DNA from: Alphaproteobacteria bacterium | Lineage (GTDB): Bacteria; Pseudomonadota; Alphaproteobacteria; UBA9219; RGZA01 | NCBI GenBank assembly: GCA_021732145.1 | Contig: JAKFVN010000017.1 | Coordinates: 1 to 64,000 of the forward strand | Length of the DNA stretch: 64,000 bases | Direction of reading: 5' to 3' | Part shown: in pieces, positions 7,713 through 39,325 of the stretch | Layout: the number at the start of each line of letters is the position of its first letter | Numbering within the stretch: the first letter of the stretch is position 1 | Notes under the pieces: generated by a model | Told to the model about the DNA's origin: nothing | Databases searched by the model: none | What the model saw: the letters and a program-made list of their open reading frames with translations, nothing else | Position numbers and translations under genes: made by a program

Positions 7713-10406
7713 TTAAGCGGCCATCATGCTGCGTAGAACGAAGGGCAGAATGCCACCGTTTTGGTAGTATTCAACTTCATCGGCTGTATCGATGCGGCAT
7801 TTCAGCGGAACCTGACGGTCTGGTGTTCCAGCTTTGGAGATGGTGAGGAATAATTCCATACCCGCCTTCAAGCCTTTTTCAATACCAACGATGGATAAGT
7901 CTTCGCTGCCATCCAGTTTCAAATCAGCACGTGTCATGCCGTTTTTGAATTCCAGTGGAAGAACGCCCATGCCTACCAGATTGCTTCTGTGAATACGCTC
8001 GAAGCTTTCGGCGATTACAGCGCGCACACCTAGCAGCTTAGTACCCTTTGCTGCCCAGTCACGGCTTGAACCTGTGCCGTATTCTTTACCGGCGATAATC
8101 ATCAATGGAACATTCGCTGCAATATAACGCATCGCTGCATCATAAATTGGCATGGTTTCACCTGTTGGCAGATATTTGGTAATACCGCCTTCAGTGCCCG
8201 GCAATAATTCATTCTTGATGCGGATGTTGGCAAATGTACCGCGCATCATGATTTCGTGATTACCGCGGCGTGCGCCGTAGGAATTGAAATCTTCCTTGGT
8301 TACTTTGTGTTCAACCAAATAGGTGCCAGCAGGGCTCTTCGCGCTGATATCGCCAGCAGGAGAGATGTGGTCGGTGGTGATGCTGTCTGCAAACACGGCT
8401 AATGGTTTTGCGCGCAGAATATCAGTCACCTTGGTTGGTTGCTTTTGCATGCCTTCAAACAATGGCGGATGTTTCACGTATGTTGAAACAGGATCCCATT
8501 GATAGGTCAGACCCGTTGCGGTCTTGACCTTCTGCCATTCGGTTGGGCCTTTGAACACATCGGCGTAGCGGTCATGGAACATTTTTGGTGTCAGGCATTT
8601 TTCAACGGTCGCCGCAACTTCCTGATTGCTTGGCCAGATGTCCTTGAGGAACACAGGCTTGCCATCACGGCCAGTGCCGATTGGGTCTTTTTCAAAATCA
8701 ATCGTCACAGTGCCGGTCAATGCATACACAACGCATAATGGCGGTGATGCCAAATAGTTTGCTTTGGTTTGTGGATTTACGCGGCCTTCGAAATTGCGGT
8801 TACCGGAAAGTACCGCGGCAACGGCTAGGTTACCTTTGGTAACGGCAGCCGAAACAGCTTCAGGCAATGGGCCGGAGTTACCGATGCAGGTTGTGCAACC
8901 ATAACCAACCAAGTTAAAGCCCAGCATATCGAGCGGCATATCAAGGCCAGCGGAGTGCAGATAATCGGTCACAACTTGGCTGCCAGGAGCAAGGGATGTC
9001 TTCACCCAAGGCTTCACGGTCAACCCTTTTTCAACCGCTTTCTTTGCAACAAGACCCGCTGCAACCATCACGCTTGGGTTTGATGTGTTGGTGCATGAGG
9101 TGATGGCGGCAATAACAACGTCACCATGAGTAACGGTGTAGTTGGTGCCTTCCACTTGTGTTTTGGTATTACGTGCATCGCCTTCGATTTTGTATTTCTT
9201 CAAATCTTCTTCAAACGCCGACGCAACCTTTGACAATGCCACGCGGTCTTGCGGCAGGCGCGGGCCAGCAAGGGATGGTTCAACGCTGGATAAATCAAGC
9301 TCAAGTGTATCGGTGAATACAGGATCTGGCGTATGTGCATCGCGCCACATGCCTTGTTCTTTTGCATAAGCTTCAACCAATGCAACGCGGTCAGCATCGC
9401 GGCAGGTGAAGTTCAAATAGCGAATGGTTTCCGCATCAATCGGGAAGATACCGCAGGTTGCGCCGTATTCCGGTGCCATATTGGCAATCGTCGCGCGGTC
9501 AGCAAGCGGAAGTGTATCAAGGCCAGGGCCAAAAAATTCTACGAATTTATTCACCACGCCTTTTTTGCGCAGCATGTTGGTGACGGTGAGCACAAGGTCA
9601 GTTGCCGTGCAACCTTCCTTGAGCTTGCCCTTGAGCTTGAAACCAATCACTTCGGGAATGAGCATCGATGTTGGCTGGCCGAGCATGCACGCTTCCGCTT
9701 CAATACCGCCAACGCCCCAACCCAGAACGGCCATGCCGTTCACCATAGTCGTGTGGCTATCAGTGCCCACCAGCGTATCAGGATATGCAATTTGTTTGCC
9801 TGTTTGATCCTTATCGGTCCACACAACTTGTGCGAGATATTCAACGTTTACCTGGTGGCAAATGCCGGTGCCTGGCGGAACCACGCGGAAATTTTCAAAT
9901 GCCTGCTGGCCCCAGCGAAGGAATGCATAACGTTCGCCGTTGCGTTCAAATTCCTTGGCAACGTTATAAGCAAACGCATTCTTATCGCCGAATTTATCAA
10001 CCATCACGGAGTGGTCGATAACCAAATCAACAGCGCATAACGGGTTTACGGATTCAACATTACCGCCAAAGCTTTTCACGGCTTCACGCATTGCGGCCAA
10101 ATCAACCACGGCTGGAACACCGGTGAAATCCTGCATCAATACGCGGGCAGGGCGGTATGCAATTTCGCGATCGCTCTTTTTGGTCTTGAGCCATTCAGCA
10201 ATCGCCTTGATGTCATCGACATTCACGGTGGTGCCGTTTTCAAAACGCAGCAAGTTTTCCAAAAGGATTTTCAAGGAATAGGGAAGGCCAGCGATGCTGC
10301 CAATTTTCTGCTCTGCGGCTTTGAGACTATAATAGTCGTAGGATTTGCCGTTGGCGGTCAGGGTGCGGCGTGTGCCGAGCGTGTCGTTTCCGGTGCGAAG
10401 AGCCAT
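7713..10406 (-). CDS. acnA: aconitate hydratase A
   Basis: 897 residues, normal for the AcnA/IRP1 type. It interconverts citrate and isocitrate in the TCA cycle. The three cysteines that hold the 4Fe-4S cluster are in ITSCTNTSNPSVM (about residue 435) and GYGCTTCIGNSGPL (about residues 501-505). The swivel domain is recognised by GKEYGTGSSRDWAAKG. AGG lies 8 bases before the ATG. Single gene, divergent from the GcrA-like gene. Confidence 0.97.
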   Translation of the reverse strand: MALRTGNDTLGTRRTLTANGKSYDYYSLKAAEQKIGSIAGLPYSLKILLENLLRFENGTTVNVDDIKAIAEWLKTKKSDREIAYRPARVLMQDFTGVPAVVDLAAMREAVKSFGGNVESVNPLCAVDLVIDHSVMVDKFGDKNAFAYNVAKEFERNGERYAFLRWGQQAFENFRVVPPGTGICHQVNVEYLAQVVWTDKDQTGKQIAYPDTLVGTDSHTTMVNGMAVLGWGVGGIEAEACMLGQPTSMLIPEVIGFKLKGKLKEGCTATDLVLTVTNMLRKKGVVNKFVEFFGPGLDTLPLADRATIANMAPEYGATCGIFPIDAETIRYLNFTCRDADRVALVEAYAKEQGMWRDAHTPDPVFTDTLELDLSSVEPSLAGPRLPQDRVALSKVASAFEEDLKKYKIEGDARNTKTQVEGTNYTVTHGDVVIAAITSCTNTSNPSVMVAAGLVAKKAVEKGLTVKPWVKTSLAPGSQVVTDYLHSAGLDMPLDMLGFNLVGYGCTTCIGNSGPLPEAVSAAVTKGNLAVAAVLSGNRNFEGRVNPQTKANYLASPPLCVVYALTGTVTIDFEKDPIGTGRDGKPVFLKDIWPSNQEVAATVEKCLTPKMFHDRYADVFKGPTEWQKVKTATGLTYQWDPVSTYVKHPPLFEGMQKQPTKVTDILRAKPLAVFADSITTDHISPAGDISAKSPAGTYLVEHKVTKEDFNSYGARRGNHEIMMRGTFANIRIKNELLPGTEGGITKYLPTGETMPIYDAAMRYIAANVPLMIIAGKEYGTGSSRDWAAKGTKLLGVRAVIAESFERIHRSNLVGMGVLPLEFKNGMTRADLKLDGSEDLSIVGIEKGLKAGMELFLTISKAGTPDRQVPLKCRIDTADEVEYYQNGGILPFVLRSMMAA

Positions 10407-10569
10407 GGGGGAGTGCCTTTTTGTGAGATGGGCAGGAGAAATCTAAGCTTCCACATATAAGGGAGCGATGTTAAAGAGAGGTGAATAGCCCTCATATCCT
10501 CATGAAATCGCTGGTATTCATTCCGTTTGCGGTATTGGCTAGGCTTCCTGAAACCTTTTTAGGAATCTA

Positions 10570-10631: not shown

Positions 10632-11105
10632 ATGGCTGCTGGTGATCCAGAAGATAACAGCAAAGATTTGGGGGGTGACGGTGGTTTCCGTAATACCCAG
10701 CCGACCATGACTCTATCCTGGACTGAACAGGATGAGATTTTGACTAACCTGTGGTCAAAGGGCGAAAAGCCAGAATCAATTGCTGTTACCCTGAACCGTT
10801 CTGTTGCTGCCGTGATGACCAGAGCTGCGCGCCTTGGCTTGCAACGTCGTTTCGCTCCCGGACGCAAACCCAAGAAAACAGGCGATGCAGAATCCGGTCT
10901 TGCCAATTTACGCAATGCAGCCCGTCTTTCCGCGCAATTGCAAACCACACCTGCACAGCTTTCACACCGCATTTGCCTGATGTGCCTAAGCCGTTTCCAA
11001 TCGCAAGGCCGCCATAACCGCATTTGCGGCAATTGCAAAGGCTCTCCTGAGTATCGTTCCGCATCCGGACTGCCGGATGTTGATGTTTCATCGGGCGGCA
11101 TCTGA
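10632..11105 (+). CDS. GcrA-like cell-cycle regulator with zinc-ribbon tail
   Basis: 157 residues. Residues 28-72 (LSWTEQDEILTNLW, then SIAVTLNRSVAAVMTRAARLG) match the N-terminal helix-turn-helix of GcrA, which binds promoters carrying methylated GANTC and contacts sigma-70. The C-terminus has a Cys4 zinc-binding pattern (C115, C118, C132, C135; RICLMCLSRFQ ... RICGNCK). A 26-residue hydrophilic tail precedes the usual start of the family, so ATG 10707 (MTLSW) is a possible alternative start. It lies immediately before the secretion locus. GcrA-like membership is well supported; being the master GcrA rather than a paralog is not. Confidence 0.75.
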   Translation: MAAGDPEDNSKDLGGDGGFRNTQPTMTLSWTEQDEILTNLWSKGEKPESIAVTLNRSVAAVMTRAARLGLQRRFAPGRKPKKTGDAESGLANLRNAARLSAQLQTTPAQLSHRICLMCLSRFQSQGRHNRICGNCKGSPEYRSASGLPDVDVSSGGI

Positions 11106-11284: not shown

Positions 11285-11947
11285 ATGAATAAACAAGATG
11301 CCGTTCAAACCGTTTTAATCCGCAATAGCTTTTACCGCGACGGTTACCGTTCGCTTTTAAAAGTAGCGCTCGTGCAGGGCGGGGTCATCATCGCGCTGAT
11401 TGCCGCGATTGTGTATCTGGTTTTATCCAGTGATGTGAAGCATGTGTTCTTTGCGACCAACGTCGATGGCCGCATCATGCCGATTGAACCGATTGCCGAA
11501 CCATACTTCCAGGATGACCAGGTCATTACATGGGTTGCCAAAACAGCGCGCGAAGTCATGCAGATGGATTACCTGAATTACCGCACCAGTCTGGATAAAG
11601 CGAACAGCAAATTCACGCAGGCAGGCCGCATCGACTTTCACGCCGCGCTTAAGGATTCGCGCCTGATTGAAGCGATTGAAAAAAACAAGCTGGTTGTGCA
11701 GTTGAAGGTTGAAGGCGCGCCGCAAATCCTGAAGAAAGCGATGACGAAGGAGGGCGCGTATGTGTGGTTCCTTTCCATGCCCATCAGCATTGTGTATGAC
11801 GGCCAGGATCCGCCGCAACCGTTTCATGGCAAATTGCAAGTGCGCGTTGACCGCATCGATTTCCTTGAAAATCCCGATGGCATTGCATTTGGCCAATGGG
11901 TAGTGGGCGAAGAAAATATTCTGAGCCGCGTGCAAAAAAGTCCGTAA
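11285..11947 (+). CDS. dotI: DotI/IcmL-type inner-membrane protein of the I-type T4SS
   Basis: 220 residues: a short cytoplasmic N-terminus with the family signature IRNSFYRDGYRSLLK (12-26), one membrane helix (about 27-48), then a periplasmic VirB8-like domain to the C-terminus. DotI (TraM of IncI plasmids) forms a ring with DotJ around the secretion channel base. It heads a run of same-strand genes and is followed 16 bp later by a second protein of the same architecture. Assignment rests on the N-terminal signature, topology and gene order. Confidence 0.85.
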   Translation: MNKQDAVQTVLIRNSFYRDGYRSLLKVALVQGGVIIALIAAIVYLVLSSDVKHVFFATNVDGRIMPIEPIAEPYFQDDQVITWVAKTAREVMQMDYLNYRTSLDKANSKFTQAGRIDFHAALKDSRLIEAIEKNKLVVQLKVEGAPQILKKAMTKEGAYVWFLSMPISIVYDGQDPPQPFHGKLQVRVDRIDFLENPDGIAFGQWVVGEENILSRVQKSP

Positions 11948-11963: not shown

Positions 11964-12644
11964 ATGGCAACAAAACGCCCCACCACCGCCATTAAACCCG
12001 AACAGGTTTATAAGGTCGTCTTTCATCCGTCCGAGCCCGCGCCCGTTGGCTCATCGGCGCAGTTCCGTTTTGCGCGCGGCCTTGTCACGATTTTATCGTA
12101 CGTCATCGCCATGCTGGTGTTCTGCGTGTTTCTCGTTTACTTCATGTTCGCGGATACGTATTTTTATCACTTCAGCGTGCTTGACCGTGAACGTATTCCT
12201 GAACGCCTTGCGACAATGAAGCCGCTTGATTACCCGAACCTCACGCGCACGGGTATCACCAACATGGCGATGAATGTCGCAACCGAAGTATTGACCTTCG
12301 GGTTTAACAATGCCGATGAACGGTTGCTCAAATCACGCCGCCTGTTCACCGAAGAAGCATGGCTGCGTTTTGCAAAAGCGTATTTGAAAGAAGGCCGTCT
12401 TGACAAAATCAAGGTCAACCAGCAGGTGCTGACCAATGTCGCGGTTGAAAATGCCGTGATTGTGGAAGAGGGGCCGAATGCCGTTGGCGAACAGCAATGG
12501 GTTGTTCAGGTTCCAACCATTACCACCTATCAGGCTGGTAAGCGCATTGTGCCCGTGCGCAGCGTCCTGCAAATTACCTTCATTAAGGCATCTACCCTTG
12601 AACATCCCGAAGGCGTTGCCATTGATGGGTGGCAGCAAATCTAA
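11964..12644 (+). CDS. second DotI-type (DotJ/TraL position) protein, full length
   Basis: 226 residues with a cytoplasmic N-terminus, one membrane helix (about 40-65; FARGLVTILSYVIAMLVFCV) and a periplasmic domain ending in QITFIKASTLEHPEGVAIDG. This resembles the tail of the preceding DotI (VDRIDFLENPDGIAFGQW). In Legionella and IncI plasmids the partner (DotJ/TraL) is a short protein lacking most of the periplasmic domain. Here both partners are full length. Probably a divergent tandem duplicate forming a hetero-oligomer with DotI. Confidence 0.7.
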   Translation: MATKRPTTAIKPEQVYKVVFHPSEPAPVGSSAQFRFARGLVTILSYVIAMLVFCVFLVYFMFADTYFYHFSVLDRERIPERLATMKPLDYPNLTRTGITNMAMNVATEVLTFGFNNADERLLKSRRLFTEEAWLRFAKAYLKEGRLDKIKVNQQVLTNVAVENAVIVEEGPNAVGEQQWVVQVPTITTYQAGKRIVPVRSVLQITFIKASTLEHPEGVAIDGWQQI

Positions 12645-12650
12645 CACAGC

Positions 12651-12837
12651 GATTCTGTGAACCGGCATCCGGTACCCCCGCAAATCGGGCATCTTTACTT
12701 CTCGTTAACATTCCACTCTCTACTCTCGTGATGTTTGATTCTTTCATGCCATAGGGGCGGGAAAAATAGAATCTGATGTGGGTTGGAGCATTGACGGGAG
12801 TCTTGAAGAAGATTCTAGTGAAAAAAGATGACGATTC
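12651..12837. promoter_or_regulatory. GANTC cluster in front of dotH
   Basis: Six GANTC sites lie in 187 bp: 12651, 12737, 12769, 12798, 12811 and 12833 (first base of each). Chance expectation is one per 256 bp. The 183-bp gap itself implies a promoter for dotH. GANTC is the CcrM methylation target in alphaproteobacteria, and GcrA acts at such promoters. A small hairpin (ACCGG/CCGGT, 12661-12673) is also present. Confidence 0.6.
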
Positions 12838-14243
12838 GTGCGTTTAAATCATTGTTCAGCAAACCATTACGGTCTTCAACCGTTTGCGGTAAGGCATTGC
12901 TTGTCGGACTTCTCGCCGCATCTCTATGCACAGACATTTCCACAGCTTATGCACAGACCATTTTACCAGCCGCACTTGCTTCGCCACTAACCCTTCCTGA
13001 ACCCGCAACGGCGTTACCGCCAGCATCGATTGTTGCATCCGCTTCGCCATCCGTCGCAGCATTGCCTTTACCATCCGCGATGTCGTCAACCGAAGCAAAT
13101 CTTGCGCCGCCACCGATGGACACGCCAGCGCTTGCAATGCCGATTGCATCGGAAAGCGCTGCGCCGCTTCCAACTTCTTCAACCACCACAACGACAACCA
13201 CTACAACGATGGATGTGCCAACGGCAGCGCCTCCGCTGACCATTTCAACGGACACATCAGCACCAGTTGCGCCAATCACAACGACAACCACTACAACGGC
13301 ACCTGCGCCAGAACCTGAAGCAATGGGAAGAAAAGCAAGCGTGGATCGCCCCGGTTCAAGCATGATGCCGCTTGATCCGCCGCCCTTGCCGCAGGAAAGC
13401 CGTTTGGATACAGCCATTCGCAATGAAGCAGAGCGCTCATTTTACGATGCAAAAAAGCAAAGATACCAAACAACATTCGAACGCGCTTACGAAGGTCTTG
13501 TGCCGCTTGGCCCCAATGAAGTGCGTGACACGATGAGCCGTTATGAACGCACGCAGCGTGCATCCGTTCCACCATCTTCCGGACAGCCACGCGGCCAGGT
13601 GCGCATTAAAACATTATCGCTCGAACCGGGTTCGGAGCCGCCCACCATCAACATCTCATCGGGCTATGTGACCACCATCACGATTCTTGATGCGACGGGC
13701 GAGCCATGGCCCATTCTTGATTTAGGCATTGGCGGAAATTTTGAAGTAAGCAAGACAGGTGGCGGCAACCATGTCATTCGCGTGATGCCGCTGACACGTT
13801 TTGGTTACGGTAATCTTTCGGTGCTGCTGCAAGATTTATCGACACCGATTATTTTCAAGCTCGCTTCCGGCGGCGCGACGGTGGATTACCGTTTTGATGC
13901 GCGCGTTCCGCGCCTTGGCCCGAACGCCAAGCTTTCACTGATTGACAAGAAAAACAGGTTGCAAGCAGGATCTGCCGAAATCATGGGCTTCCTTGATAAT
14001 GCGCCGCCGCCAGAAGCAAAGCGCGTTCGCATCAATGGCGCTGACAGTCGCACCATGGCATGGACGGTGAATAGCCGCATGTTTGTACGCACCCCTTTGA
14101 CCATGTTATCACCGGCTTGGGATTCAAGCGTGTCATCTGCCGATGGCACAACGGTATACGAATTGACCGAAACGCCTGTTCTTATCATGTCGGATAATGG
14201 TGTGCTGGTTCGCGCGCGCGTGGCACCCAAGGAAGAAGAATAA
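12828..14243 (+). CDS. dotH: DotH/IcmK outer-membrane core protein
   Basis: 471 residues. Signal peptide (ALLVGLLAASL, cleaved near AYAQ), then a roughly 130-residue low-complexity Pro/Ala/Thr linker with two poly-Thr tracts. Then comes the DotH domain: ISSGYVTTITILDATGEPWP, YGNLSVLLQDLSTPIIFKL and VDYRFDARVPRLGPNAKL are its hallmark. DotH (TraN in IncI) forms the outer-membrane ring with DotC and DotD. It overlaps the GANTC cluster at its 5' end and is followed 2 bp later by dotG. The Thr linker is encoded by a 22-bp direct repeat. Confidence 0.92.
   Translation: MTIRAFKSLFSKPLRSSTVCGKALLVGLLAASLCTDISTAYAQTILPAALASPLTLPEPATALPPASIVASASPSVAALPLPSAMSSTEANLAPPPMDTPALAMPIASESAAPLPTSSTTTTTTTTTMDVPTAAPPLTISTDTSAPVAPITTTTTTTAPAPEPEAMGRKASVDRPGSSMMPLDPPPLPQESRLDTAIRNEAERSFYDAKKQRYQTTFERAYEGLVPLGPNEVRDTMSRYERTQRASVPPSSGQPRGQVRIKTLSLEPGSEPPTINISSGYVTTITILDATGEPWPILDLGIGGNFEVSKTGGGNHVIRVMPLTRFGYGNLSVLLQDLSTPIIFKLASGGATVDYRFDARVPRLGPNAKLSLIDKKNRLQAGSAEIMGFLDNAPPPEAKRVRINGADSRTMAWTVNSRMFVRTPLTMLSPAWDSSVSSADGTTVYELTETPVLIMSDNGVLVRARVAPKEEE
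13187..13298 (+). repeat. 22-bp direct repeat encoding poly-Thr linkers in DotH
   Basis: The same 22 bases occur at 13187-13208 and 13277-13298. Each encodes a run of threonines in the periplasmic linker of DotH. Slippage or recombination between the copies would delete 90 bp in frame. Confidence 0.85.
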
Positions 14244-14245
14244 TC

Positions 14246-15625
14246 ATGACGAATGCACCTGATGATTTTGACCAAGACTTTTCAGAAGCCACGGTACAGC
14301 GTGCGTCTGCCGCCAAGCCCACTATGGCGAATAATATTGCCGCCGCATGGCAGGGCAGTCCATTGTTCAAGATGTTTGTGCTGGTGGTAATTGTTGGCGC
14401 GCTGGCTGCTGCGGCCATCGCGATTTTCTCGGGCAATGAAAAGGATATTCCGGGAACATCCGTGCGCTCCGCGCCGGGCCTGACCGAAGCGCCCGGTGCC
14501 AAAGCGCCGCCTGCGTATGTTGACGCGGTGAACGATGCATCCATCAAGCGCGCGGAAGAAGCACTGCAACAAGGCAAGAGCGCTATCCCAACGCCTGTGT
14601 CGGGCGATGAAACAAAGGCAGGGTTAGGCGATCAAGGCGATGAATCGCAATATGACCCATTGGCGGAATTCCGTCCCAATACGCCGCAAGATGCGGCGCC
14701 AGCAGCCCAGCAAGACCAGACGCCCGTTGAAACGGTGGACAGTGAATTGCTGAGCAAGATGCAATCGCAAATGACCAATCTGTTTGACAGCTGGCGACCT
14801 GCCGGAATCAAAACCATTCAAATTCAGGAAGCATCCGCGCATCAGGCGACGCCTGTCAATGCCACAACAGCGCCAAATGCAAAAGTCATCGTGGCATCCG
14901 GAAGCATTTATTACGGCGAATTGCTGATGGAAGCGAATTCCGATGCGCCAGGCCCGATTGTTGCGCAAATTTTATCCGGCCCATTTGCAGGCGGCCGCGC
15001 GATTGGTGCGTTTGAAATAAGGCGCGAATACCTCATCATCCATTTTACCAAAATCAGCTATAAGAAAAAAGATTATGCGGCTGATATTCTGGCGGTTGAT
15101 CCTAACACAACCTTGGGCGCGCTGGTCACCGAAAAAGATAATAGATATTTTACGCGCGTTATTTTACCAGCTGCTGCTGGATTCCTTGAAGGATTTGGCC
15201 AGGCACTGGGTACGCCATCGAACAGCATTGTCAGCAATAATGGGCAAACAGTCGTGTTGCAGCAATCCAGGCAAGGGATTGCAAATGGGCTCTATCGCGG
15301 CCTGGCGCAAGGCTCAATGACCGTAGGCGGCTTTTTCAGGGAGGAAGCGGCGGCAACCAAGCCGCTTATCCGCGTTGCGGTTGGAACGCCTATGGGATTA
15401 TTTTTCGTGAATTCCGTGACCGATGGAAGCCAGGCTGGCCGCAGCGCTAATGTCATTGAAACGCCTATGCAGATACCGCAGCAACAACCCACGCCTAGCT
15501 ACCCCTCTTCGGATGGCTTTATTAATAACAGTAATGTTATCCCTAATACGGGGTTAACCACGGTTCCTGCTTCATCTCTTGCGAACAGTGGCATCAACAT
15601 TATACAATCGGCTCCCCGTTATTAG
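14246..15625 (+). CDS. dotG: DotG/IcmE, VirB10-like core protein
   Basis: 459 residues: cytoplasmic N-terminus, a single membrane helix (about 42-61), a flexible linker, then the VirB10/TrbI-type periplasmic beta-barrel domain (ASGSIYYGELLMEANSD, GPFAGGRAIGAFEI, VGTPMGLFFVNSV). DotG spans the envelope and forms the channel. The length matches the IncI version (TraO); the long pentapeptide-repeat region of Legionella DotG is missing. It begins 2 bp after dotH. Confidence 0.92.
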   Translation: MTNAPDDFDQDFSEATVQRASAAKPTMANNIAAAWQGSPLFKMFVLVVIVGALAAAAIAIFSGNEKDIPGTSVRSAPGLTEAPGAKAPPAYVDAVNDASIKRAEEALQQGKSAIPTPVSGDETKAGLGDQGDESQYDPLAEFRPNTPQDAAPAAQQDQTPVETVDSELLSKMQSQMTNLFDSWRPAGIKTIQIQEASAHQATPVNATTAPNAKVIVASGSIYYGELLMEANSDAPGPIVAQILSGPFAGGRAIGAFEIRREYLIIHFTKISYKKKDYAADILAVDPNTTLGALVTEKDNRYFTRVILPAAAGFLEGFGQALGTPSNSIVSNNGQTVVLQQSRQGIANGLYRGLAQGSMTVGGFFREEAAATKPLIRVAVGTPMGLFFVNSVTDGSQAGRSANVIETPMQIPQQQPTPSYPSSDGFINNSNVIPNTGLTTVPASSLANSGINIIQSAPRY

Positions 15626-17008: not shown

Positions 17009-17383
17009 AATGCCTAACGGCGGACGTTGGCTTTTTGGCGCTTTCTGCCTGTCCTCCTTTGGATGACATTATAAAATCACCGCAAAGCGGTGGCGGTGCT
17101 CACGTACTTAAATGTACGCTGCGCTCCGGTTCTCGAAACCACCAAAAATCCTTAGCCGCAGCAAAATTTTGCATAGGTTCCAATTCCTCATATATAACGT
17201 AAGACACGGTTAATCATTTTTAACCAATGATATTTTCTTCCTTTGAAATCAAAGAAAGAAAGTAATTTTTTATATACTTTTAATGAATCCTTGGAATACT
17301 CGGATGATGGGGAAAAGCCTTTTTATGTCATCCGATCGCGTGGGATGTAATCCATCCGGTTGGGTTGCTTTGGGAACTTGCGC
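17009..17383. other. intergenic region with palindromic elements
   Basis: 375 bp without a gene. It holds CACCGC-AAA-GCGGTG (17078-17092), CGTAC-TTAAAT-GTACG (17103-17118), a GGTT/AACC pair just after, and GGTTAA-TCATTT-TTAACC (17208-17225). One GAATC site is at 17285. The first half looks like a compact dispersed palindromic repeat; the AT-rich second half probably contains a promoter for the next gene. Confidence 0.5.
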
Positions 17384-20174: not shown

Positions 20175-20310
20175 GCGCTTTGTTCATTTTCAGTTAAGGC
20201 TTTGTCTTTACTCTAGATTCTGGCTCTAACTAATCTATCTCAAGAAGGGCCGGGCAGGGGGGATAACCACTACCTTTCTGTTCATGCCACCCCTAATTCT
20301 GATGTAGCAC

Positions 20311-23300
20311 ATGCTGGGTTTACTCGATGAATTTTTTGCCGGAATCTTGCTGCTGTTCAAGCAGCCGGTGGAATCGTTCATCAATCTTGAAACCGCAGAT
20401 GATGAAACCACGTTGGTGTCCAACGATGGTTCGCTGCTGACCTATCTGAAAATCAGTGGCGCGCGCCAGATGATTGGCGGCGAAGAGTATAACTGGATTA
20501 TCGATCAGGCGACCTTGAAACTCGGCGCGCGCTTTGACCGTCCTGGCCAAGCAATGCAATTTTATTTCTATCGCGATCCTGACCGCATTGGCCGTACATT
20601 GCACAAAATGATGACACCGAACCGCATGTCGGCAGGTGCCATTGGCATTGATCTGGACGACTTGCTTAAAGAACGCCAGCGCAATTTATCGAACTATCTT
20701 GCTTTGGAAGAAATGTATTTGGTGCTGTGGACACGCCCATCAGGTCTTACGCCAAACGAATACAAACGCGCGCAGGAAACACGCAAAGACCAGAAGTGGC
20801 ATGCCGCAAAAAATGCGCAAATGCCGTTTGCGGCGCTGGAACCATTGCGCTTAAAACACAAGGCGTTCGTTTCCAATATTTCTGAATCCTTATTTGAGCT
20901 TGGGATTGTTTCCAACGTCATGGAAGTGCATGACGCGTTGCGTGCGGTGCGTGCCAGCATCTATCCAAATCTCGATAACGATAAATGGAAAGCCTGCCTG
21001 CCGGGCGACCCGATTGCGCCGCGCCGTCCGCGCTATAAACGCGACTGGTCAGATTTGCTATGGCCACCGATTTCGCAGCAGCTTTGCCCGATGGATGCCG
21101 AAGTGCTTGGCCCCAGCACGGTGCGCGTAGGTGATCTTGCATGGGCCGCAACCGATATGTCGCTTGGCCCGTCCGATGCATCGCCATTCCCGCAATTGCT
21201 GAACCGTTTGATTGAAGCGAATATGCCGTTCCGCATTTCGTTTATGATTGAATCAGGCGGCGCAACGGGTGAAAATTTCCGTAAGCTTGCGGCATCACTG
21301 CTTGCATTTTCCAACGGTATTAACCGGCAGATTAAGGAAACGCTGAACGAGCTTATCGCGCTGTCGCAAAGCGATCCGGTTGTGAAGCTGCGTATTTCCT
21401 ACGCGACCTATGCGCCAGCTGGCGATAAGAAATTGATTGAAACGCGTCTTGCGAATTTGATGCAGGCCGCTGAATCATGGGGCTATTGCCAGGTTGCCAA
21501 TATTTGCGGCGACCCTTTGGAAGCTGTGATGTCATCCGTGCTTGGCATTTCATGTTCGGCAACTGCGCCCCCGGGCGTTGCGCCGCTGCGCGAAGTCGTG
21601 AAAATGTTGCCGTGGCAGCGCTCCTGCTCGCCGTTCAATGATGGCGCTGTTATTTTGCGCTCACCCGATGGCCGTATCTGGCCATACCAGATGGGCACGG
21701 CGTTGACCACCACATGGTTCGATTTGATTTTCGCGCAGCCGGGTTCGGGTAAATCGGTCTTGATGAACGCGAAGAATCTCGGCTGCTGTTTATCAGCGGG
21801 TATGAGCAAATTGCCGTTCATCGCGATTTTGGATATTGGCCCGTCATCATCGGGCCTTATCTCACTTTTAAAAGACGCGCTGCCTGCTGACCGCCGTCAG
21901 GAAGTTTTGCATTTCAAATTATTGATGACGCCGGAATACGCGGTGAACCCGTTTGATACGCAACTCGGTTGCCGTTATGCATTGCCCGACGAACGCGCGT
22001 ATTTGTGTGAATTGCTTACCCTTATTTGCACGCCGCCCGGCCAAGACACGCCGTATGACGGCATGACGCAGCTGGTTGGTTTCTGCGTCGATGAAATGTA
22101 TCGCTGGCGCGATGACGCGGAAGCGAACGCCGAAGCGCGCCCTTATCTTGAACTCATCGAACCACGCGTCGATGATGCGATTAAGAAAATGAATTTGGTG
22201 CTGCCGCCTGAACCCTATTGGTGGGAAGTTGTGGATGCGCTGTATGATGCCGGCGCAAAACATGAAGCGATGCTCGCGCAGCGTCATGCTGTTCCAACAC
22301 TGGTGGATGCCGTTACGGCCGCGCGCCGCCCGCAAATTCGCGCATTCCTCGATGAAACCGCCATCGGCCCCAGCGCGGAAGGCGTTATCCACGCGTTTGA
22401 ACGTATGATTGCATCCGCCATTCGTGAATTCCCGATTTTGGCTGGCGTTACCCGTTTTGATACAGGCACCGCGCGCGTCGCATCGGTTGATTTGCAGGAA
22501 GTTTCCCCGCAAGGCGATGCCTCCGCTGACCGTCAAACCGCTATTATGTACATGCTTGCGCGCCACACGCTGATCCGTTCATGGTGGCTCAACCCCGATA
22601 GCTTGCGTAACGTAAGTGCGCGTTACCGTCCGCACCATGATGAACGCTTGAAGGAAATCCGCGAAATTCCAAAACGTCTTTGCTATGACGAATTCCATCG
22701 CACCGCGAACAGCTTTGCAGTGCGTGCGCAACTTATTCGCGATGTTCGCGAAGGCCGTAAATGGGGTGTGCAAATCGTGCTTGCTTCCCAATTGCTCAAC
22801 GACTTTACCGCAGACATGATTGACTTGGCGACAGGTATTTGGGTGTGCGGTTCAACCGCATCGGAACGCGCGATTGCCGATTTGGGTGAAAAATTCTCGC
22901 TCTCGGAAACGGCGCGCTGGGTCGTGCGGTATCGCCTGACGGGGCCTAAGCCCAGTGGTTCGCCCGTGCTGCTTATTCTGTCAACGACCGAAGGCCGTTA
23001 TGAGCAGCATCTTGTCAACACGCTTGGCCCGATTGAACTCTGGGCGCTATCCACATCTGCGGAAGACGTGGTTATCCGTACCAAGCTTTATGAAAAGGTG
23101 GGCGCGGTGAAAGCCCGGCGTTTGCTTGCCACATTGTTTCCTGGCGGCACTGCCCGCCATGAAATCCGCCGCCGCGTCGTTATCCGCACCGAACGCGGTG
23201 AGTTAACAACCAACGCGCAACAGGCCGTTATGCAGGAAATGGTAGATGAATTGGCAGCTTACGTAACCCGTGAGGTGCTGGATGGTGTGCTGGAGGTTGA

Positions 23301-35791: not shown

Positions 35792-35853
35792 GATTCAGTG
35801 CAGACTCTTGTAACGATTCACCGACCCAGTCATAGTTTTTCATTAAGCGAATC
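35792..35853. promoter_or_regulatory. GANTC cluster in front of dotD
   Basis: Four GANTC sites in 62 bp, starting at 35792, 35803, 35815 and 35849, within the 215-bp gap before dotD. Just after them GTTGGTTAG (35855-35863) and CTAGCCAAC (35880-35888) form an imperfect hairpin enclosing a smaller GCCT/AGGC hairpin. Together this looks like a methylation-sensitive promoter with a structured leader for dotD-dotC-dotB. Confidence 0.55.
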
Positions 35854-39090: not shown

Positions 39091-39325
39091 AAAATCAACC
39101 AAAAGTTAATACATTCGAAACTATTTAGGCTCCGCTTTGCCTGTAAGGGGAGAAAATTGTTGCACAAGCATCACACTTGCTATTCTCTCGCTTTCGCGAC
39201 GCGGCTAAACATTTGGTGAATAAGAATCTTCTTCCCTAAGATGCGTAAGCCAATTGAGTACCCTCACGATAGTCGTGCGTCGATTTTTTGGTGCAAGAGG
39301 GGATTTTTTAAAGGCAGGAATGAAC

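Follow-up and report, generated by a model that had tools for sequence, protein, structure and literature searches.

A dense, family-conserved cluster of GANTC sites at dotH in an alphaproteobacterial type IVB secretion cluster, and its possible link to the cell cycle

The window, a stretch of 64,000 nucleotides of alphaproteobacterial DNA, carries a type IVB secretion cluster, as is evident from its genes for DotH, two DotI proteins, a DotG-like protein, DotM, DotD, DotC/TraI and a DotB-type ATPase, together with PilN-type pilus genes. This gene set is shared with the Dot/Icm and IncI-type IVB clusters, whereas the two dotI copies and a gene with a GcrA-type helix-turn-helix (HTH) at the head distinguish the present one. 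The genes around dotH and the six GANTC sites (given without strand) are as follows.

10632..11105, plus strand: gcrL (name given here), GcrA-type HTH and Cys4 module; first gene of the cluster
11285..11947, plus strand: dotI copy 1 (PF11393), Pfam match
11964..12644, plus strand: dotI copy 2 (PF11393), Pfam match
12651..12655: GANTC site 1, GATTC, directly 3' of the dotI2 stop; not retained in G001
12737..12741: GANTC site 2, GATTC; retained solely in the same-genus relative (G001)
12769..12773: GANTC site 3, GAATC; retained in 4/4 dotH-bearing family members
12798..12802: GANTC site 4, GAGTC (GATTC in G003 and G004); retained in 4/4
12811..12815: GANTC site 5, GATTC, overlapping the putative -10; retained in 4/4
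12833..12837: GANTC site 6, GATTC, in dotH codons 2-4; retained in 4/4
12828..14243, plus strand: dotH (PF12293), E 1.6e-72

The coordinates given for these six sites in a first-pass annotation (12651, 12737, 12769, 12798, 12811 and 12833) are all exact. Their description as lying in front of dotH holds for five of them, located in the 183-bp gap (12645-12827) between the dotI2 stop codon, which ends at 12644, and the dotH ATG at 12828, while the sixth (12833-12837) lies within dotH. The gap had also been called the only sizable one among the early dot genes, but others precede dotI1 (179 bp) and lie at 17009 (351 bp) and 18374 (169 bp).

GANTC is scarce in this DNA, with 94 occurrences in the window compared to 178 in shuffled sequence, and its depletion has been reported for alphaproteobacteria with CcrM (PMC3973325). 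In a sample of 41 stretches, which covered 864 of the 2092 kb of this genome and relied on a crude gene caller, GANTC occurred at 0.99/kb overall, at 2.41/kb in intergenic DNA and at 0.84/kb within genes, and 174 of the 295 gaps of at least 80 bp contained no GANTC. Against this background the gap before dotH, with six sites in 183 bp when the one just inside dotH is counted, holds GANTC well above chance. The expectation of about 0.7 sites originally put forward was too high, since the real rates give about 0.2 to 0.45 per 187 bp, and the excess is correspondingly larger. For a cluster of six sites in 187 bp anywhere in the 864 kb, a P value of 0.007 was obtained assuming an even intergenic rate, again with the crude ORF caller. 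The genome-wide density had been proposed as a check on the initial observation, and the background turned out to be sparse, with most intergenic regions not as dense as the gap before dotH. The dotH cluster is nevertheless not the sole GANTC cluster of the genome, as comparable ones were found at L246 and L082. The former spans 63 bp (7732-7794, G000:C9) and comprises six GANTC, of which four belong to an 11-bp tandem repeat of the TTTGAATC type. The latter (13042-14553, G000:C20) is a 1.5-kb gap with 11 GANTC, flanked by genes for a ribonucleotide reductase and a PrmC-like protein; it also holds a perfect TTAAC-N6-TTAAC and TGTGGATAA, which we take to be DnaA-box-like, and is possibly a replication origin or a cell-cycle promoter.

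DotH matches were obtained in 31 of the 96 genomes searched, 29 of these among the 33 genomes of the order. One of the five family members, the same-genus G002, lacks DotH, DotD and GcrL in a complete genome that encodes GcrA and CcrM, and the whole secretion system would appear to have been lost or gained within a genus. The other four members were aligned. Five of the six sites are retained in G001, which belongs to the same genus, at equal distances from the dotH start, and sites 12769, 12798, 12811 and 12833 are common to all four dotH-bearing members, where they are arranged around an invariant TTGACG-N17-TCTAGT. The sites were thus not lost in relatives, the second point on which the early reading could be checked, and the retention of four of the six throughout the family points to selection; the dense cluster is limited to the family and was not retained in the DotH loci compared outside it. 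Retention at positions 1, 2, 4 and 5 in all four members was seen for 12 of the 212 pentamers taken from the window sequence, and four of these 12 are GANTC (hypergeometric P = 8.5e-5, an approximate value because pentamers overlap), the other eight being part of TTGACG and TCTAGT or overlapping the GANTC sites. That the retained sites stand among other retained bases, TTGACG and TCTAGT, would also fit an explanation which we regard as rather unlikely, namely that they were kept for reasons other than methylation, with 12811 serving in the -10, 12798 and 12769 as promoter context and 12833 as start-codon context. However, the free N of site 12798 varies from G to T in the four-member alignment with GA-TC remaining constant, and four separate sites hold the same pentamer in a genome depleted of GANTC. 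Other pentamers in the gaps of the cluster, moreover, are retained less often, with only 4 of 15 retained among the other palindromic pentamers that served as a control in the same gaps.

When intergenic GANTC sites were aligned to G001, 7 of 8 in the secretion cluster were retained versus 2 of 9 elsewhere (P = 0.012), a contrast that was weaker with four dotD sites added by hand (8/12 versus 2/9, P = 0.056). Further GANTC sites of the secretion cluster, likewise without strand, are listed below.

10563..10567: GAATC before gcrL; retained in G001, GAATC in G004 too, absent from G003
17285..17289: GAATC upstream of the 17360 gene; retained in G001 but not G003 (judged by eye)
20216..20220: GATTC upstream of the gene at 20311 (1031 aa); retained in G001
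35849..35853: GAATC upstream of dotD; also in both G001 and G003 (judged by eye)
39224..39228: GAATC upstream of the pilus gene at 39254; G001 has GACTC

The dotD cluster (35792-35815) was rejected as a further example of equal weight, since only 35849 of the four dotD sites is retained in G001 and counted. Two conserved blocks resemble each other: TTTTCAGTTAAGGC, at approximately 20195-20215, precedes the gene at 20311, and TTTTTCATTAAGC, at approximately 35832-35848, precedes dotD. Both are retained in family members and could possibly represent the site of a shared regulator.

The invariant stretch within the dotH gap contains two elements that resemble a promoter.

12791..12796, plus strand: TTGACG, putative -35; invariant in the family
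12814..12819, plus strand: TCTAGT, putative weak -10, spaced 17 bp downstream from TTGACG; invariant in the family, rejected by the consensus scan

Judged by its sequence, TTGACG-N17-TCTAGT is likely the dotH promoter, and one GANTC follows directly after TTGACG (12798) while another lies over TCTAGT (12811). A sigma-70 consensus scan of the region accepted no -35/-10 pair, TTGACG-N17-TCTAGT included, and the -10 is poor. A promoter dependent on an activator of the GcrA type would be expected to have just such a weak -10, and GcrA has been described to stimulate open-complex formation at methylated promoters (PMC7403470). The start implied by these elements would render the dotH mRNA nearly leaderless; it also fits poorly with a GGAGG that directly follows TCTAGT in G004. 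An RNA leader structure was also considered, given that AGAATCT (12768) and AGATTCT (12810) are perfect complements and could pair. This explanation appears highly improbable, as the folding energy of the region is ordinary (z -0.28), compensatory pairs amounted to 1 of 16 in a four-sequence alignment that placed one site differently from the main alignment, and Rfam gave no match in the 10 kb searched; it was discarded. Two candidate genome-wide promoter classes were likewise rejected: pairs of GANTC 13 bp apart occur at only seven places, near the density prediction (about 4-5, an estimate), and TTGAC followed by GANTC within 3 bp occurs at three places in 464 kb, which is too few.

In the sister family f2, 18 of 22 loci have a GANTC no more than 80 bp from the start of the dotH frame, compared to 8.0 expected, but 78 of 179 long frames in the same loci (0.44) likewise have one at this distance from their start. 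The motif GATTCGGGG, whose GATTC adjoins an apparent ribosome site, is present in 13 copies in 472.8 kb (both strands), all of them at dotH. Both the recurrence of this GATTC and the frequency of GANTC near starts of other frames speak for the explanation of the sites by sequence context raised above, and the single GATTC of f2 was not counted as evidence of methylation because it may be kept as ribosome-site context. Accordingly we would not read GANTC at dotH in f2 as methylation control. The dotH start in the f2 loci L038-L061 also bears a CTGATTCGGGGATGTCC-like element, through which the reading frame varies.

Upstream of the putative promoter, the gap contains a second type of element.

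12694..12709, plus strand: CtrA-like half-site pair TTTACttctcgTTAAC; one mismatch to TTAA-N7-TTAA

This pair reads TTTAC-N6-TTAAC and is thus one mismatch away from the CtrA consensus, given as TTAA-N7-TTAA (PMC9437464). It resembles a CtrA site in its half-site spacing, its closeness to dotH and the presence of CtrA in the genome, and differs from it in the first half, where the window has TTTA and the sister family TAAA. Of 31 loci, 22 have the box T[AT][AT]AC-N6-TTAA[CT] close to dotH, with 0.009 expected per locus, and its distribution among groups is uneven (f2, 20/22; f1, 2/4; f3, 0/3; outside the order, 0/2). All 20 copies in f2 read TAAAC-N6-TTAAC, one mismatch from TTAA-N7-TTAA, at a strongly conserved position and with a trailing TGGTGAAA-like stretch. 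This uniformity and the trailing stretch make another regulator that binds direct repeats conceivable.

The genome itself encodes the three proteins that such control would involve. One full copy of GcrA is present, CtrA scores above its profile cut-off (as in 28 of the 33 genomes of the order), and CcrM is matched by 6pbd (E 2.9e-156). With the NF050803 model CcrM scored 619 bits, below the cut-off of 830, which was reached by none of the 33 genomes of the order nor by the Caulobacter control. Matches to the CcrM model, some of them weak only, were found in 30 of these 33 genomes and were absent from G001, G011 and G031. G001 retains five sites yet shows no CcrM match, but since its assembly is in about 290 pieces the gene may have been missed.

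The gene heading the cluster, gcrL, is the most novel part of our findings. The HTH of its product matches two GcrA structures, PDB 7ye1 (E 2.3e-6) and 5yiu (E 1.6e-4), and hhalign aligned GcrL with GcrA at 96.5% over 57 columns, a match that spans the HTH only. This N-terminal HTH is shared with GcrA (PF07750), although the window copy scores 21 bits, below the Pfam cut-off of 26.9 that is exceeded in G008 and G025. In contrast to GcrA, GcrL has a CxxC-x13-CxxC motif, invariant in 17 of 17 sequences, a different recognition helix (SVAAIMTRAARLGL versus TRNAVIGKAHRLKL in GcrA), no CRWP-type C-terminal domain and a linkage to dot genes. The sigma-interacting domain of GcrA was not found in GcrL, which we therefore did not file as a GcrA. 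In the predicted structure (mean pLDDT 71) the HTH is well predicted, and a Foldseek search with this model returned nothing at E <= 0.001. Among named genomes 28 GcrL-type loci were found, partly in the same genomes as the GcrL set of the relatives; 24 have the HTH and the other four the Cys motif only. In 22 of the 24 HTH loci dotI adjoins GcrL, one locus lies near dotL and the remaining one is not flanked by any dot gene. Across 92 genomes, GcrL (E <= 1e-20) and DotH were both present in 26, GcrL only in two, DotH only in five and neither in 59, a co-occurrence counted by hand and in a test inflated by shared ancestry; both GcrL-only genomes have DotD, and one DotH-only locus is cut by a contig end.

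This linkage, the co-occurrence with DotH, the GcrA-type HTH and the situation in G002, where GcrL is missing along with the Dot genes and GcrA is kept, raise the question whether GcrL rather than GcrA might read the sites, as a dedicated regulator of the secretion system that would act via its Cys4 module and recognize GANTC, or a sequence related to it, at dot promoters. We consider this improbable, as GcrL is spread over the order and the dense GANTC cluster is not, GcrL lacks a sigma-binding domain, and its recognition helix is unlike that of GcrA, so that its target may differ. Still somewhat less probable, in our estimation, is that the system is served by a dedicated branch of the cell-cycle epigenetic circuit, in which GcrL, as a GcrA paralogue with Cys4 replacing the sigma-binding domain, would read GANTC methylation at dot promoters and the machine would be built a set time after passage of the replication fork.

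We slightly favor the explanation that dotH is controlled by CcrM and GcrA, with a CtrA-type input upstream, in step with the cell cycle. The gap before dotH would be a regulatory region under selection. Its promoter, weak and of the housekeeping-sigma type, would have candidate CcrM methylation sites in its core, one directly downstream of the -35 and another overlapping the -10, with two more flanking. GcrA, as a sigma cofactor that reads methylated GANTC, would most likely open this promoter, and the CtrA-like site further upstream may add a further input. On this view the production of dotH, and with it that of the type IVB outer-membrane core, would be synchronized with replication and division. 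The dense, conserved cluster of sites and the presence of a GcrA-like gene in the same gene cluster suggest a probable coupling of secretion-machine assembly to the cell cycle. The timing of the secretion core proposed in the first-pass annotation therefore gains from the sparse background, the retained sites and the encoded GcrA, CcrM and CtrA, and has to be narrowed insofar as the dense cluster is limited to the family; the annotation had missed both the CtrA-like box and the GcrA-like head gene, which bear on the mechanism.

A similar arrangement is described for the Caulobacter promoters under CcrM/GcrA control, i.e. those of mipZ (two juxtaposed GANTC), podJ and ctrA P1, where the exchange of GANTC for GCNTC is reported to reduce GcrA-dependent promoters by 60-80% (PMC3667746). 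As in the Caulobacter cases described there, several GANTC lie in or near the promoter, CcrM and GcrA are present and GANTC is rare in genes. In contrast to them, the putative promoter at hand serves a type IVB secretion core gene and has more sites than given for mipZ, podJ and ctrA P1. No paper joining Dot/Icm, Alphaproteobacteria and GcrA was found in the open-access library searched, a collection without most subscription journals. The named records of the order include Micavibrio, described as a genus of bacterial predators (PMC3189940). If true, control of a type IVB core by CcrM, GcrA and CtrA would mean that assembly of a cell-contact machine is tied to the cell cycle, and the association of a GcrA-HTH protein with a secretion system makes the spread of GcrA-type readers testable.
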